Positions 2,845 to 27,935 of a stretch of 64,000 nucleotides of DNA are shown one piece after another. Position numbers and translations under genes: made by a program. The notes under the pieces are model-generated. The model did not search any database. It was not told the DNA's origin and worked only from the letters and a program-made list of their open reading frames with translations. Origin of the DNA: Herbaspirillum chlorophenolicum (lineage in GTDB: Bacteria > Pseudomonadota > Gammaproteobacteria > Burkholderiales > Burkholderiaceae_D); the NCBI RefSeq assembly GCF_001189955.1, contig NZ_LFLT01000017.1, positions 1 through 64,000 on the forward strand, read 5' to 3'. Within the stretch, counting starts at the first letter, position 1, and each line of letters starts with the position of its first letter.

Positions 2845-3513
2845 ATGAAGCCCGGTAGCCCATCGACATCTTCCGCTCCCACGGGCGGGCGTCCGCTGCG
2901 TATCGTCATCGTCAATTCCGTGCCGCATCTGGAAGAAGACCATGACGAAGCCGCGCATGAGCAGGCGCAACAGCGTGCCGAGGCGCTGCGTGCCGGGCTG
3001 CTGGATGCCGGATACAACATCATCGCCGCGTTGCCGGCCGACCTTTCGCTGCCGGACCGCATTGCCGGCCTGCAGCCGGACATGATCATCATCGAAGCCG
3101 AGTCCGATGCGCGCGATGTGCTGGAGCACATCGTGATCGCCACCCGCGATGAACGCCGCCCCATCGTCATGTTCACCGAAGACGACGACACCTCCAGCAT
3201 GGAAGCCGCCATGGCCGCCGGTGTGACTGCCTATATCGTGGCGGGCTTGCATTCCGAACGGGTCAAGCCGGTGCTGGACGTGGCGTTGGCGCGTTTCCGC
3301 CAGGAGCAGAAGCTGCTGGCCGAGCTTTCCGATACCCGGAACAAGCTGGCCGAACGCAAACTGGTCGAACGCGCCAAGGGGGTGCTGATGGCGCGCAAGG
3401 GCTTGTCCGAAGACCAGGCCTACCAGAAGCTGCGCGGCATGGCGATGAACCGCAATCTCAAGCTTTCCGAAGTGGCCCAGCGCCTGCTGGATGCCGAGGA
3501 CTTGCTGGGCTGA
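2845..3513 (+). CDS. nasT: NasT-type ANTAR response regulator (transcription antiterminator)
   Basis: The 222-residue product has an N-terminal receiver-like domain (residues about 18-145; PIVMFTEDDD and AGVTAYIVAGLHSERVKP are typical NasT strings). A linker helix and a C-terminal ANTAR RNA-binding domain follow (about 160-220; LVERAKGVLMARKGLSEDQAY). NasT proteins bind two-hexaloop RNA hairpins in leaders of nitrate-assimilation genes and prevent termination. Just such a leader precedes nrtA downstream, which supports the name. The receiver is degenerate: the phospho-acceptor position after the third strand reads IIIEAES, with Glu rather than Asp, and the acidic pair at strand 1 is missing (IVIVNSV). 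Control is therefore probably by a partner protein such as NasS, which is not in this window. Confidence 0.9.
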   Translation: MKPGSPSTSSAPTGGRPLRIVIVNSVPHLEEDHDEAAHEQAQQRAEALRAGLLDAGYNIIAALPADLSLPDRIAGLQPDMIIIEAESDARDVLEHIVIATRDERRPIVMFTEDDDTSSMEAAMAAGVTAYIVAGLHSERVKPVLDVALARFRQEQKLLAELSDTRNKLAERKLVERAKGVLMARKGLSEDQAYQKLRGMAMNRNLKLSEVAQRLLDAEDLLG

Positions 3514-3568: not shown

Positions 3569-3583
3569 GCACAAATGAAGTGC
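3569..3583. promoter_or_regulatory. Candidate NtrC binding site
   Basis: GCAC-N7-GTGC (GCACAAATGAAGTGC) matches the NtrC half-site arrangement seen upstream of glnA. It lies about 160 bases before the predicted sigma-54 start, a normal enhancer distance. Only one clear site is visible. Confidence 0.55.
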
Positions 3584-3708
3584 GGCGAAGCGCTCGTTTT
3601 GCTGGCGTTTCATGCCTCCCCCGAAGCGGGGTCGCATGTTCTTCCGCATCCACCGCCGATCCCGTTTCCATAGGGGATTGCCGGCATGCCGCACGGTTTT
3701 CCATTCCT

Positions 3709-3725
3709 CTGGCACGGTCTTTGCT
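3709..3725 (+). promoter_or_regulatory. Sigma-54 (-24/-12) promoter of the nitrate uptake operon
   Basis: CTGGCACGGTCTTTGCT fits the consensus YTGGCACGrNNNTTGCW at every defined position, with GG at 3711-3712 and GC at 3723-3724. Predicted transcription start is near 3736, immediately at the first hairpin of the ANTAR leader. Confidence 0.85.
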
Positions 3726-3734
3726 GAACCAGCC

Positions 3735-3783
3735 CTCGTAGCGCAACGAGTGCGCAATAGATGCGGCCAACGGAGGTTGCATC
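3735..3783 (+). promoter_or_regulatory. Two-hexaloop ANTAR (NasT) RNA element in the nrt leader
   Basis: Hairpin P1 is CTCGT/ACGAG (3735-3750) with loop AGCGCA. Hairpin P2 is GATGCGGCC/GGTTGCATC (3760-3783, two G-U pairs) with loop AACGGA. Both loops are six bases with A at position 1 and G at position 4, the signature bound by ANTAR proteins. A 9-base linker separates them, and an intrinsic terminator follows 9 bases later. Confidence 0.85.
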
Positions 3784-3792
3784 GCCCAAGAC

Positions 3793-3843
3793 AAAGGCGT
3801 CTTTCGACATGAAGCAATTCATGCCGGAATACGCCTTTTTTTG
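3793..3843 (+). terminator. Leader terminator controlled by NasT antitermination
   Basis: A long hairpin is built from AAAGGCGT/ACGCCTTT, then TTTCG/CGGAA, then CATGAA/TTCATG with a GCAA tip. A run of seven T ends the hairpin. It lies between the sigma-54 start and nrtA, so unless it is bypassed the operon is not transcribed. Confidence 0.85.
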
Positions 3844-3871
3844 TTTATCGGTTAGCAATGGGGGAAATGCC

Positions 3872-5158
3872 ATGGATTTCCAAGAGCAGGCGGGCAAGGC
3901 AGTGGCCGGGGCAGTCAAGGACGCGGAAGTGGACGGTACGCGCCGCAAGATCATTCATACCGCGGGCATCGCGGCGGGAGCGAGCATGATGGGTTTAGCC
4001 ACCGGCGGCGCCTGGGCGGCCGGTTCCGACAAACCGGAGAAGGAAGAGGTCAAGATCGGTTTCATTCCCCTGACCGACTGTGCCTCGGTGGTGATGGCTT
4101 CGGTGCTGGGTTTCGACAAGAAGTACGGCATCAAGATCGTGCCCAGCAAGGAGGCCTCCTGGGCCGGTGTGCGCGACAAGCTGACCAACGGCGAACTGGA
4201 CGCCGCCCACGTGCTGTACGGCCTGATCTACGGCGTGCAACTGGGCATCGGCGGGCAGAAGAAGGACATGGCGGTGCTGATGGGCCTGAACCACAATGGC
4301 CAGGCCATCACGCTGTCCAAGAAGCTGGCCGACAAGGGCGCGGTGGATGGCGCTTCGCTGGCCAAGCTGATGCAGATCGACAAGCGCGAATACACCTTCG
4401 CCCAGACCTTCCCCACCGGCACCCACGCGATGTGGCTGTACTACTGGCTGGCGGCCAACGGCATCAATCCGATGAAGGATGCCAAGGTCATCACCGTGCC
4501 GCCGCCGCAGATGGTGGCCAACATGCGCGTCGGGAACATGGATGGCTTCTGTGTGGGCGAGCCCTGGGGCCATCGCGCCATCGTCGATGGCGTGGGCATC
4601 ACCGCCACCACCACCCAGGACATCTGGAAAGACCACCCGGAAAAGGTGCTGGGTACCTCGCTGGAATTCGTCAAGAAATACCCCAACACCTGCCGCGCGA
4701 TGATGGCCGCCATCCTCGATGCCAGCAAATGGATCGATGCTTCGCTGACCAACAAGAACAAGATGGCCGAGGTCATCGCCGACAAGTCTTACGTCAACAC
4801 CAGCAAGGACGTGATCGACCAGCGCATCCTGGGCCGCTACCAGAACGGCCTGGGCAAGACCTGGGACGACCCCAACTACATGAAGTTCTACGACGACGGC
4901 ACGGTCAACTTCCCGTACCTGTCGGACGGCATGTGGTTCATGACCCAGCACCGCCGCTGGGGCCTGTTGAAGAGCGATCCGGATTACCTCGCCGTGGCCA
5001 AGGCGGTCAACCAGATCGACCTGTTCAAGGACGCTGCGGCGATGACCAAGACGCCGGTGCCCAAGGATGTCATGCGCACGTCCAAGTTCATGGACGGCAC
5101 CGTGTGGGATGGCAAGAATCCGGCGGCCTACGCGCAGTCGTTCAAGATCAAGGTCTGA
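3872..5158 (+). CDS. nrtA: Nitrate ABC transporter, periplasmic nitrate-binding protein
   Basis: The product has 428 residues from the ATG at 3872, which has GGGGA at the right distance. Earlier in-frame starts fall inside the leader hairpins and are rejected. A twin-arginine-like signal (TRRKIIHTAG followed by a hydrophobic Ala/Gly-rich stretch) suggests Tat export of a folded protein. The rest is the NrtA/SsuA-type binding fold; VKIGFIPLTDCASVVMA, PTGTHAMWLYYWLA and GEPWGHRA are characteristic of nitrate/nitrite binding proteins. It delivers nitrate to NrtB/NrtC. It is the first gene of nrtABC plus a receptor-like gene, controlled by sigma-54 and the NasT leader. Confidence 0.93.
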   Translation: MDFQEQAGKAVAGAVKDAEVDGTRRKIIHTAGIAAGASMMGLATGGAWAAGSDKPEKEEVKIGFIPLTDCASVVMASVLGFDKKYGIKIVPSKEASWAGVRDKLTNGELDAAHVLYGLIYGVQLGIGGQKKDMAVLMGLNHNGQAITLSKKLADKGAVDGASLAKLMQIDKREYTFAQTFPTGTHAMWLYYWLAANGINPMKDAKVITVPPPQMVANMRVGNMDGFCVGEPWGHRAIVDGVGITATTTQDIWKDHPEKVLGTSLEFVKKYPNTCRAMMAAILDASKWIDASLTNKNKMAEVIADKSYVNTSKDVIDQRILGRYQNGLGKTWDDPNYMKFYDDGTVNFPYLSDGMWFMTQHRRWGLLKSDPDYLAVAKAVNQIDLFKDAAAMTKTPVPKDVMRTSKFMDGTVWDGKNPAAYAQSFKIKV

Positions 5159-5203: not shown

Positions 5204-6133
5204 ATGAGCGCAGTCATGGAAAACATCATGGGCGATAACGCCAAGCCGGCCGCCGAGGCGCCTGCCGCGGTGCGTGGCGCCGAAGCCGCCAACGAGGCCC
5301 GGGCGGCGACGCCTGCGCCGGCTGCCGCATCCCGTGCGGCCAGGCGCCGCATCGCCGGCAGCGGCGCCTTCATGCGCATTGTGCCGCCGCTGCTGGGGGT
5401 GGCAGTGCTGGTGCTGGTCTGGCAGATCATCGCCTTGAAGAACAGCAGTTTCCCGACGCCGCTGGCGACGCTGCAGGAAGCGATCAGCATGTTCTCCGAT
5501 CCCTTCTATCGCAACAGCCCCAATGACCAGGGCATCGGCTGGAACGTGCTGGCTTCGCTGCAGCGCGTGGGCGTGGGCTTCGGCCTGGCGGCGCTGGTTG
5601 GCATTCCGCTGGGGTTCGCCATCGGCCGCGTGCAGTTCCTGTCGGCCATGTTCGGCCCCATCATCAGCCTGTTGAAGCCGGTGTCGCCGCTGGCCTGGCT
5701 GCCGATCGGCCTGCTGGTGTTCAAGTCGGCCAACCCGGCGGCGATCTGGTCGATCTTCATCTGCTCGATCTGGCCGATGATCATCAACACCGCAGTGGGC
5801 GTGCAGCGCGTGCCGCAGGACTACATGAACGTGGCGCGCGTGCTGAACCTGTCGGAATGGAAGATCCTGACCAAGATCCTGTTTCCCTCGGTGCTGCCTT
5901 ACATGCTGACCGGTGTGCGGCTGTCCATCGGTACCGCCTGGCTGGTGATCGTCGCCGCCGAGATGCTGACCGGCGGCGTGGGCATCGGCTTCTGGGTCTG
6001 GGATGAATGGAACAACCTGAACGTGCCGCACATCATCATCGCCATCGTCGTCATCGGCGTGGTCGGTCTGATCCTGGAGCAGGCGCTGGTGGCGCTGGCC
6101 AAGGCATTCACCTATGAACAGGTCAGCAACTGA
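5204..6133 (+). CDS. nrtB: Nitrate ABC transporter, membrane permease
   Basis: The 309-residue inner-membrane protein follows nrtA by 45 bases, with a strong AGGAGGGG ribosome site. An Ala/Pro-rich cytoplasmic N-terminus (about 50 residues) precedes roughly six membrane segments. The binding-protein-dependent transport signature lies around [22 protein letters not shown] (EAA loop that contacts the ATPase). The terminal part ([20 protein letters not shown]) is typical of NrtB/SsuC permeases. It forms the nitrate channel with NrtC as motor. Confidence 0.92.
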
Positions 6134-6153: not shown

Positions 6154-6966
6154 ATGGAAAACATCAACGGCAAATTCATCGACATCCACGGCGTGGAAAT
6201 GGTGTTCAACACCAGGAAGGGCAGTTTCCATGCGCTGCGCGATATCAACCTGACGGTCGCCAAGGGCGAGTTCGTCACGCTGATCGGCCACTCCGGCTGC
6301 GGCAAGTCGACCCTGCTGAACCTGATCGCCGGCCTGACCCGGCCCAGTGAAGGCGTCCTGCTGTGCGCCAACCGCGAGATCGGCGGCCCGTCGCCGGAGC
6401 GCGCGGTGGTGTTCCAGAATCATTCGCTGCTGCCCTGGCTGACCTGCTACGAGAACATCTACCTCGGCGTGGAGCGCGTGTTCGGCGCGCTTGAGGACCG
6501 CACCCAACTGCGCGACCGCACGCGCGCCGCGCTGGCGCTGGTGGGCCTGTCGGCGGCCGAGACCAGGCGCCCCAATGAAATCTCCGGCGGCATGAAGCAG
6601 CGGGTGGGCATCGCCCGCGCGCTGGCGATGGAGCCCAAGGTCTTGCTGATGGACGAGCCGTTCGGAGCGCTCGATGCACTGACGCGCGCCCACCTGCAGG
6701 ACGAGCTGCTCAAGATCGTGGCCAAGACCGAGTCCACCGTAGTCATGGTGACGCACGATGTCGACGAGGCCGTACTGCTGTCGGACCGCATCGTCATGAT
6801 GACCAACGGCCCGGCGGCAACGATCGGCGAGATCCTCGAAGTCGGGTTGCCGCGTCCGCGCGAGCGGGTTGCGCTGGCGCAGGACCAGCAGTACTCCGAG
6901 TACCGTACCGCGGTGCTGGAATTCCTCTACCGCAAACAGGCGCATCCGGCGCGTGAAGCCGCTTGA
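6154..6966 (+). CDS. nrtC: Nitrate ABC transporter, ATP-binding protein
   Basis: The product is a 270-residue single ABC ATPase. Walker [10 protein letters not shown] is at residues 45-53, the Q-loop Gln at 88, the signature SGGMKQR at 144-150 and Walker B LLMDEP at about 164-169, followed by the switch His ([10 protein letters not shown]). Length equals a plain NrtD/SsuB-type subunit, without the NrtA-like C-terminal regulatory domain of cyanobacterial NrtC. It starts 20 bases after nrtB and energises nitrate import. It could be named nrtD or nasD in other schemes. Confidence 0.92.
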
Positions 6967-6982: not shown

Positions 6983-7738
6983 ATGTCCAGCCAGGCCGCC
7001 GTGCAGGAAATGCATGGCACTGTTCCCATCCCGTTTGCGGCCGTCAACGATGCGCGCGCGATGCCGCAGGGGCATAGCGAGGCGTCTTCCTCAGATGATT
7101 CCGGCGTGGCGCCGTTGTCAGGCGAAGTATTCGGTGCGCTGATCAACCTCTCGGGCCGCCGGCGCTTCACGTCGCAGCGGCTGGTGCTGTATGCGGTGCT
7201 GGGTGCGCAGGGCCACGAAGGCGCAGTGGCGACCGCGCGCGAAGCGCTGGCCCTGTTCCGTGGGGCGCATCAGGCTTTGCTCAGGCGCTCCGGTGAGCTG
7301 CCGGGCGTGTTTTGTCCGGAACTGGAGGAGGTCTATTTCGGCAAGCCGCAAGGCGATGCGCGTATCGTGCATTTCAGCGAGCTGGCGGGCCGTGCGCTCA
7401 ACGCCATCGAGGACAAGCTCAAGTCAGCCCCGGAACTGCTGGAAGCGCTGGTGAAGGAGACCACGCCGCTGCTGGCGGTGCTGAACCAGATCACCGGGAT
7501 CTACGAGGAACAATCCAGGAAGCATTCGCGGCTCATGCGCGACCAGTTGCGCGGCATCATGACAGATATCGAGACCATTGCCCGCGAAGCCAAGATGGTG
7601 GCGTTCAATGCCCGCATCGTGGCGGCCCGTTCGGGCCAGGCCGGCCGGGAATTTTCGGTTGTGGCCGGTGTGCTGTCCAACATTACCGGCGAGATCGATG
7701 AGTTGGTAAAGGCGGCGTTGAACGGTACGGCAGCCTGA
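6983..7738 (+). CDS. Soluble methyl-accepting-chemotaxis-like protein in the nitrate operon
   Basis: The 251-residue protein has no signal peptide, membrane segment or HAMP domain. The C-terminal third (residues about 180-245; IAREAKMVAFNARIVAARSGQAGREFSVVAG in part) matches the hairpin tip of chemotaxis receptors, but the long coiled-coil arms are missing. The N-terminal 150 residues match nothing I recognise. It follows nrtC by 16 bases with a GAGGTGA ribosome site and precedes the operon terminator, so it is co-expressed with nitrate transport. It may couple cytoplasmic nitrogen status to chemotaxis or second-messenger signalling; this is inference. Confidence 0.75.
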   Translation: MSSQAAVQEMHGTVPIPFAAVNDARAMPQGHSEASSSDDSGVAPLSGEVFGALINLSGRRRFTSQRLVLYAVLGAQGHEGAVATAREALALFRGAHQALLRRSGELPGVFCPELEEVYFGKPQGDARIVHFSELAGRALNAIEDKLKSAPELLEALVKETTPLLAVLNQITGIYEEQSRKHSRLMRDQLRGIMTDIETIAREAKMVAFNARIVAARSGQAGREFSVVAGVLSNITGEIDELVKAALNGTAA

Positions 7739-18983: not shown

Positions 18984-19059
18984 TGGTAGGCCGTGCGGGA
19001 CTCGAACCTGCGACCAACGGATTAAAAGTCCGCTGCTCTACCAACTGAGCTAACGACCC
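18984..19059 (-). tRNA. tRNA-Lys (anticodon UUU)
   Basis: A 76-base cloverleaf including an encoded CCA. The anticodon UUU is complementary to 19024-19026. D loop AGTTGGTA and T loop TTCGAGT are standard. Oddities: the T-stem has one A-C mismatch (positions 51 and 63; GCAGG against CCCGC), and the acceptor stem has G1-U72 and U4-G69 wobbles. It still looks functional. Confidence 0.93.
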
Positions 19060-25515: not shown

Positions 25516-25528
25516 GCGCTCACCATTT

Positions 25529-25623
25529 CGTCTCACGTAACTGGCGAAAAGCCGGAGCATCTCCGGCCAAGATGGGTATCCATCGGGAAGCGTGAGATTT
25601 CATCAGCCGTGCGCCTGGGCAGC
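25529..25623 (+). promoter_or_regulatory. ZTP/ZMP riboswitch (pfl motif) in the glyA leader
   Basis: P1 is TCTCACG/CGTGAGA (25531-25537 with 25591-25597), enclosing GTAACTGGCGAAAA and hairpins GCCGGAG/CTCCGGC and GATGG/CCATC. After a linker comes the conserved 3' domain AGCCGTGCGCCTGGGCAGC. These are the hallmark conserved blocks of the pfl RNA, which senses ZMP/ZTP and is known before glyA and other one-carbon genes. GGGCAGCC (25617-25624) can pair with GGCTGCCC (25644-25651), a possible expression platform. Confidence 0.87.
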
Positions 25624-25757
25624 CGAATGGAAAGTACGACTGAGGCTGCCCGCAATCCCACCTGTTTGGCCCTCATTCGATTTTGAAGTCGACCCGAGCG
25701 GCATTGTGTCGCCGTGACGGTTGGTCTTCGGCCGCACCTCATCAATTTGGAGAAACC

Positions 25758-27752: not shown

Positions 27753-27930
27753 GGAATCAAGTCCCGCCTGTGCCGCTGTGCCGGCATCCTGAACCTGACG
27801 GTTCAAGTTGGCCACGGTAGTTCAGTATCGGGTTCATCGGACTAGCGACGCTCACGCCAACCAAACGATCCCGCAGCCTATGCTCGTAAATGGTTCAAGG
27901 AATATATGGCAAACGCGAACACGGCAGGAG
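27753..27930 (-). ncRNA. ssrS: 6S RNA
   Basis: Read on the minus strand, the region contains blocks like those of E. coli 6S RNA. There is a CGTTTGGTTGGCGTGAGCG block followed by TAGTCCGATG. Near the 3' end, CTTGAACCGTCAGGTTCAGG resembles the CTTGAACC...GGTTCAAGG hairpin. The ends can form an interrupted closing stem (CCTG/CAGG, CCG/CGG, TGT/ACA), and the RNA ends GATTCC. It lies downstream of zapA, the same neighbour as in E. coli. 6S RNA sequesters sigma-70 RNA polymerase in stationary phase. The 5' end is estimated from the promoter. Confidence 0.8.
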
Positions 27931-27935
27931 TACAA

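Follow-up and report, generated by a model that had tools for sequence, protein, structure and literature searches.

Locus and gene content

What senses nitrate for a transporter operon that is preceded by nasT and by an ANTAR-type attenuator, if no separate nasS can be found in the genome? The question is raised by the nrtABC locus of Herbaspirillum chlorophenolicum, a soil bacterium whose genome (192 contigs) is 100% complete by the tool's estimate. The missing nasS, overlooked in the preliminary description of this DNA, is the more interesting feature of the locus. Within the window (the whole stretch analysed, 64,000 nucleotides), nasT is followed by a 358-base gap, nrtA, nrtB, nrtC and a chemotaxis-like gene. 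The four nas/nrt genes are:

2845..3513, + strand: nasT, ANTAR protein with a degenerate receiver-like N-terminal domain (Pfam ANTAR, 77.1 bits)
3872..5158, + strand: nrtA, full-length, 428 aa, with a twin-arginine signal read by eye (Pfam NMT1_2, 344 bits)
5204..6133, + strand: nrtB, nitrate ABC transporter permease (NCBIfam TIGR01183, above cut-off)
6154..6966, + strand: nrtC, nitrate ABC transporter ATPase (NCBIfam TIGR01184, above cut-off)

The assignment of nasT, which the preliminary description had placed just upstream of the leader, is borne out by the ANTAR domain and by alignment with the nasT products that adjoin nasS in relatives. The chemotaxis/PilJ-like gene (6983–7738) adjoins the locus in many relatives, even without nrtBC, and a PAS-HisKA_3 histidine kinase is encoded upstream of nasT (48–1082). 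Rfam placed a ZTP riboswitch at 25527–25627, a 6S RNA at 27757–27933 (minus strand) and a tRNA at 18987–19059 (minus strand); at the leader, the search for an ANTAR leader model that had been proposed earlier gave no match at gathering thresholds.

Promoter of the nrt operon

Two elements precede the predicted transcription start:

3569..3583, + strand: NtrC-type site GCAC-N7-GTGC, GCACAAATGAAGTGC, read in the sequence
3710..3725, + strand: sigma-54 promoter, TGGCACGGTCTTTGCT, exact consensus match, predicted +1 at about 3736

The sigma-54 consensus is TGGCACG-N4-TTGCW. Positions 3710–3725 are its only exact match within the 64-kb window, in agreement with the earlier claim that every defined position is matched, and comparison of the 47 collected leaders showed the core GG-N10-GC in all of them. 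The start, placed by rule from the GC at -12, lies 51–57 nt 5' of the core of the second ANTAR hairpin (P2, see below) in 30 of these leaders. For the NtrC-type site the picture is mixed: the motif is present as described, but its frequency in the window is that expected by chance (3 matches vs 3.21 expected). It occurs between nasT and P2 in 30/47 leaders and is missing in 17/47; since it is this placement that recurs, the support is positional, and NtrC may bind at the putative site. Conservation over the 47 leaders gives good support to the two-layer control proposed in the preliminary description, with NtrC/sigma-54 initiation and then ANTAR attenuation. Initiation of this type has a parallel in the Klebsiella nas operon with NasR.

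Leader hairpins and terminator

Downstream of the predicted start, three hairpins and a terminator can be drawn:

3741..3755, + strand: P0, accessory hairpin GCGC(A)-loop-(U)GCGC with loop AACGAGT/ACGAG (predicted folds)
3760..3783, + strand: P1, first ANTAR hairpin, hexaloop AACGGA at 3769–3774 (predicted folds)
3788..3803, + strand: P2, second ANTAR hairpin AAGAC-AAAGGC-GTCTT, hexaloop AAAGGC at 3793–3798 (folds, covariation)
3793..3842, + strand: intrinsic terminator, stem 3793–3838, T run 3836–3842 (fold z -5.92)

Leaders for comparison came from 86 stretches, in which a substrate-binding motif was found at least 250 nt past nasT in 50, closer in 24, and not at all in 12; the last number includes five minus-strand loci read on the wrong strand (L020, L023, L030, L031 and L037). 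P2 is present in 47 of the 50 loci with the long gap (the exceptions being L072, L109 and L110) and in none of the 24 without it. In L110, from a Collimonas MAG, nrtA is broken by a stop past the signal region and the leader has decayed too.

All pairing values refer to the 47 rows. P2, which has an A1/G4 hexaloop and a C:G closing pair, is paired in 90.6% of cells, a value to be read with the selection of the leaders in mind: the pattern used fixed two of the five P2 pairs plus A1 and G4, making those counts circular; the counts for P1, the terminator and the remaining three P2 pairs are free of this. At one P2 pair AU is replaced by GC in 11 rows, and at another GC by AU in one row. The inner seven pairs of P1 are 89.1% paired, and at 4 of them both partners have changed; its outer two pairs are 56.3% paired. 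The automatic picking of hairpins took P0 for P1 in L059, L060 and L100 and failed to find P1 in L080 and L081. The outer stem of the terminator is 93.1% paired, with 23 cells changed on both sides. P0, folded here as GCGCA-ACGAG-UGCGC, is paired in 62.1% of cells; it precedes P1 in many leaders but not all, being absent from several.

The loop and 3' strand of P2 (3793–3800) also form the 5' arm of the terminator. A truncated RNA (3736–3806) is predicted to fold into P0, P1 and P2 (z -2.2), and in the full RNA (3736–3845) P0 and P1 stay while the terminator replaces P2 (z -5.92, none of 200 shuffles as stable). P2 and the terminator, as compared across the leaders and in the predicted folds, are thus mutually exclusive. 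The long terminator of the preliminary description is therefore real, but not its statement that the terminator does not overlap the second hairpin; the puzzle of how NasT could then act on it disappears because P2 holds the terminator's 5' arm.

That description had named two A1/G4 hexaloop hairpins, at 3735–3750 and 3760–3783, and had let the RNA begin on the former. The latter is P1 and is kept, P2 was missed, and the former (CTCGT/ACGAG) was rejected: it is 38.1% paired, against a shuffled mean of 43.5% (a value this high or higher was reached in 496 of 500 shuffles), and neither predicted fold contains it. The predicted start near 3736 would cut it, and lies about 5 nt 5' of P0. A model in which 3735–3750 and 3760–3783 are the hexaloop pair and the terminator overlaps neither can draw on the A1 and G4 that both loops carry in this one sequence; with its first hairpin neither conserved nor predicted to form, and with P2 supplying the overlap, we regard it as barely credible. 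By conservation and folding, the hexaloop pair of the attenuator is P1 plus P2. In published ANTAR systems, as set out in PMC3369931 and PMC7496416, the second of two hexaloop hairpins stands at the base of the terminator, and the present leader is an attenuator of this two-hairpin type behind a sigma-54 promoter.

A second leader and the NasR-type relatives

A covariance model of P1, P2 and the terminator (R1), built from 37 of the 47 leaders, found one further forward site in the genome (C13:33747–33851, 28.7 bits). A reverse-strand match in the window (21.7 bits) is the terminator's own inverted repeat and was discarded. The second leader (L171, G000:C13:31500–42000) has its own sigma-54 promoter and three A1/G4 hexaloops, and precedes genes for a narK-like MFS transporter, a nirB-type reductase and a nasA-type molybdopterin enzyme. 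Among 28 such stretches of the genus (27 fetched plus L171), 24 passed the filter (L189, L190, L198 and L200 did not), and 23 of these, judged by eye, have A1/G4 in the first hairpin too, the exception being G020. Since nasT is the only gene in the genome with an ANTAR-domain match, NasT probably serves both the nrtABC and the narK-nirB-nasA operons.

Eleven Herbaspirillum loci (L118–L124, L126, L127, L129 and L148) keep the nrt leader, with a NasR-like ANTAR protein encoded elsewhere in the genome; NIT plus ANTAR was confirmed in G020, and the other NasR-type genomes were assigned by long ANTAR frames. The P0 loop of the nrt leader lacks G4 in 10 of these 11 genomes (G033 is the exception). 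These strains offer a natural case of one leader changing between sensor types.

NasT and the missing nasS

Two queries, NrtA (E 1e-20) and the NasS of G017, a genome of the same genus (E 1e-15), matched only NrtA in the genome, and likewise only NrtA in six other nasT genomes of the genus (G002, G004, G014, G022, G024 and G027). The signal-less NasS of G017, encoded directly after its nasT, was found by both. By comparison, then, no separate nasS is detectable at these thresholds. The second substrate-binding protein (38% identity) of many relatives was considered as NasS and dropped: it was not found in this genome, and is present in G003, where there is no close NasT or NasR match.

Could NasT instead be controlled by a NasS too divergent for such searches, or by a histidine kinase such as that at 48–1082? 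The genome does encode 18 further, more distant NMT1_2 proteins, and the kinase gene lies upstream of nasT. However, NasS proteins of the known type score 281–293 bits to NMT1_2, as against 92 bits for the next best protein here after NrtA, and NasT lacks an acidic pair where its receiver-like domain begins, has, in this strain, a Glu at the phosphoryl site, and is without the conserved Lys, residues which we take to be those needed by a receiver. The kinase was set aside on the latter ground, and we hold either variant to be very unlikely.

A predicted internal start inside nrtA

A candidate for the missing sensor lies within nrtA itself:

3976..3988, + strand: internal Shine-Dalgarno (SD) sequence GGGAG (3976–3980) and ATG (3986–3988), in the signal-peptide region (conservation)
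3986..5158, + strand: predicted signal-less short NrtA, 390 aa, candidate NasS-like sensor (suggested by the internal start and by the signal-less relatives beside nasT)

GGGAG stands 5 nt 5' of the ATG, just past the twin-arginine stretch. Among the nasT-type nrtA genes from Herbaspirillum, Collimonas, Rugamonas/Duganella and Glaciimonas, all 30 have the ATG and 29/30 the SD; the same pattern finds the combination in none of the 11 NasR-type Herbaspirillum genes. The 30 genes omit L100 (a near-duplicate, with the start) and the broken L110, and L030 dropped out of the codon and SD count. L043, from Herbaspirillum sp. alder98, is the sole nasT-type exception; it keeps the ATG, with GC-rich codons and no clear SD.

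The SD persists although the neighbouring residues vary. The Gly codon at the SD is GGA in 26 of 30 genes, compared with 11 of the 930 Gly codons that lie in the mature region, and an SD energy of -6.6 or below was found in 29/30 genes at this site vs 4 of the 545 further internal ATGs in these genes. Among genes of the window, 14 of 314 internal ATGs reach this value, and 4 of 34 in the first 60 codons; four of the 30 genes (L042, L051, L059 and L096) have another internal ATG with a stronger SD. At the corresponding site, the 11 NasR-type genes have no SD by pattern and carry ATG in 7, GTG in 3 and a gap in 1, with SD energies of -6.6 and -7.9 before the GTG of L124 and L127. This region is also among the most structured of the gene in the NasR type (mean rank 0.94, 10 measurable), as against 0.43 in the nasT type. 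In a tree of the mature coding region (39 of 50 genes), the NasR type needs 3 changes, at least 2 of them on well-supported branches, so the start signal was lost along with nasT more than once. NrtA residues separating the two types came down to one weak column, which was dropped.

These figures bear on another reading, namely that GGA and the A/T-rich codons are slow codons, or reflect the low structure, of signal peptides, with NasT regulated otherwise or constitutive and NtrC as the main control. GGA is indeed raised at other signal-region Gly codons, to intermediate levels (6/20, 6/19 and 8/29). The excess at the SD position is nevertheless far above this remainder, the residues around the SD vary while it does not, the NasR-type genes share the signal yet lack the SD, and the signal-less relatives beside nasT (see below) call for a NasT-related role of the protein. 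We consider this reading improbable. The internal start signal is well supported by comparison, and it may give rise to a short product with a role in nitrate sensing.

Nine nasT-linked genes of Herminiimonas and Oxalicibacterium (L071, L074, L076, L080–L082, L098, L099 and L102) have Phe at the position of the internal Met, and most nrtA genes read from other orders have no such internal site. The former would fit an alternative in which NasT is partnered by the full-length NrtA precursor, which would fold in the cytosol prior to Tat export, and the internal start is unused or unneeded; in G035, which has such a gene, a single NrtA-like protein was found. That proposal, however, leaves unexplained why SD and ATG are conserved in the nasT type and lost in the NasR type, and we rate it as unlikely.

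Substrate-binding genes beside nasT in relatives

Related genera suggest what a short NrtA might do. In 71 nasT loci of the genome collection, the neighbouring substrate-binding gene encodes a signal peptide in 38, all then followed by nrtB; in 29 it lacks the signal, and in no case does nrtB follow; no gene could be read in the other 4. In related genera, the signal-less version is all that is kept next to nasT, and nrtBC is missing. The signal-less gene is directly followed by the chemotaxis-like gene in 9 of these 29 loci, which look as though nrtBC had been excised. Remnants of the exported N-terminus are found in the signal-less L065, L066, L068, L072 and L103–L105, and the L072 protein begins at the same Met as the internal start.

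Trees were built from 114 rows (71 in that with distant NasS, 61 in that rooted on Methylococcaceae), after upstream frames with read-through (L097, L104, L105 and others) had been reclassified by hand. When Methylococcaceae NrtA served as the root, 23 signal-less proteins grouped as a single clade (SH-aLRT 99) nested within the exported NrtA of the family. Holding the 11 NrtA of other orders together was not rejected (p-AU 0.201), which is consistent with the nested signal-less clade. When distant NasS were added, every signal-less protein came to lie on the same side of a single branch, and long branches meet in this tree. The direction from exported to signal-less rests jointly on rooting, remnants and synteny.

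Signal-less proteins near nasT in other families of the class (L222, L223, L227 and L229) carry SDAPE-type remnants of an exported N-terminus, hinting that the change from NrtA to NasS may have occurred in other lineages too.

Proposed mechanism

We suggest the following sequence of events: i) under nitrogen limitation, NtrC would drive sigma-54 transcription from about 3736; ii) by default, the transcript would run to the terminator and stop near 3842; iii) with nitrate present, free NasT would bind the P1 and P2 hexaloops; iv) P2, held closed, would keep out the 5' arm of the terminator and allow read-through into nrtABC, and the same NasT would probably act on the narK-nirB-nasA leader; and v) a cytosolic short NrtA, made from the internal start, would most likely hold NasT in the absence of nitrate, the part played elsewhere by NasS, and full-length NrtA would be exported to feed NrtBC. 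Step v supposes that the short form is produced and remains cytosolic, where it may bind both nitrate and NasT. As the proposed sensor is encoded behind the switch it controls, a feedback loop would result.

Taken as a whole, this attenuator model, with cytosolic short NrtA as the nitrate sensor gating NasT, is to our mind probably the right explanation. We also lean, a little less firmly, to the wider view that one gene provides both an exported nitrate-binding protein and a cytosolic sensor controlling its own transporter's attenuator, and that the NasS of Massilia, Duganella, Pseudoduganella and Janthinobacterium relatives arose by loss of the upstream start and the transporter genes. If this is true, a transporter's binding protein became a gene-regulatory sensor via a second start codon, living genera still show intermediate stages of the change, and a nasS missing from an annotation need not mean a missing sensor. 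The dual-form nrtA is the probable novelty here, the leader itself being of a known ANTAR kind; a dual-start NrtA/NasS is not described among the matches listed in the open-access literature, subscription journals lying mostly outside the scope of that search.

Comparison with known systems

The nrt leader shares with the EutV-dependent eut leaders and with NasR-nasF of Klebsiella oxytoca, as presented in the sections available of PMC3369931 and PMC7496416, two A1/G4 hexaloops with C:G closing pairs and a second hairpin at the 5' base of the terminator that is mutually exclusive with it. It differs from them, as far as those sections go, in the extra hairpin P0 of many leaders and in its regulator, which here is NasT.

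According to the portions available of PMC3795266 and PMC5424462, NasS of Paracoccus denitrificans is a signal-less relative of NrtA from which NasT is released by nitrate or nitrite. The present locus resembles that system in having nasT near the attenuated operon. Unlike in P. denitrificans, no separate nasS was found here, and the sensor proposed would be an additional form of the binding protein of the transporter itself.

A precedent for two such forms is offered by the N-terminal proteoforms of Salmonella (PMC11005335), where a single gene yields a longer product that carries a targeting signal and a shorter one that lacks it. None of those described in the part of that paper available is a substrate-binding protein that doubles as a gene regulator, the combination that we propose for NrtA.
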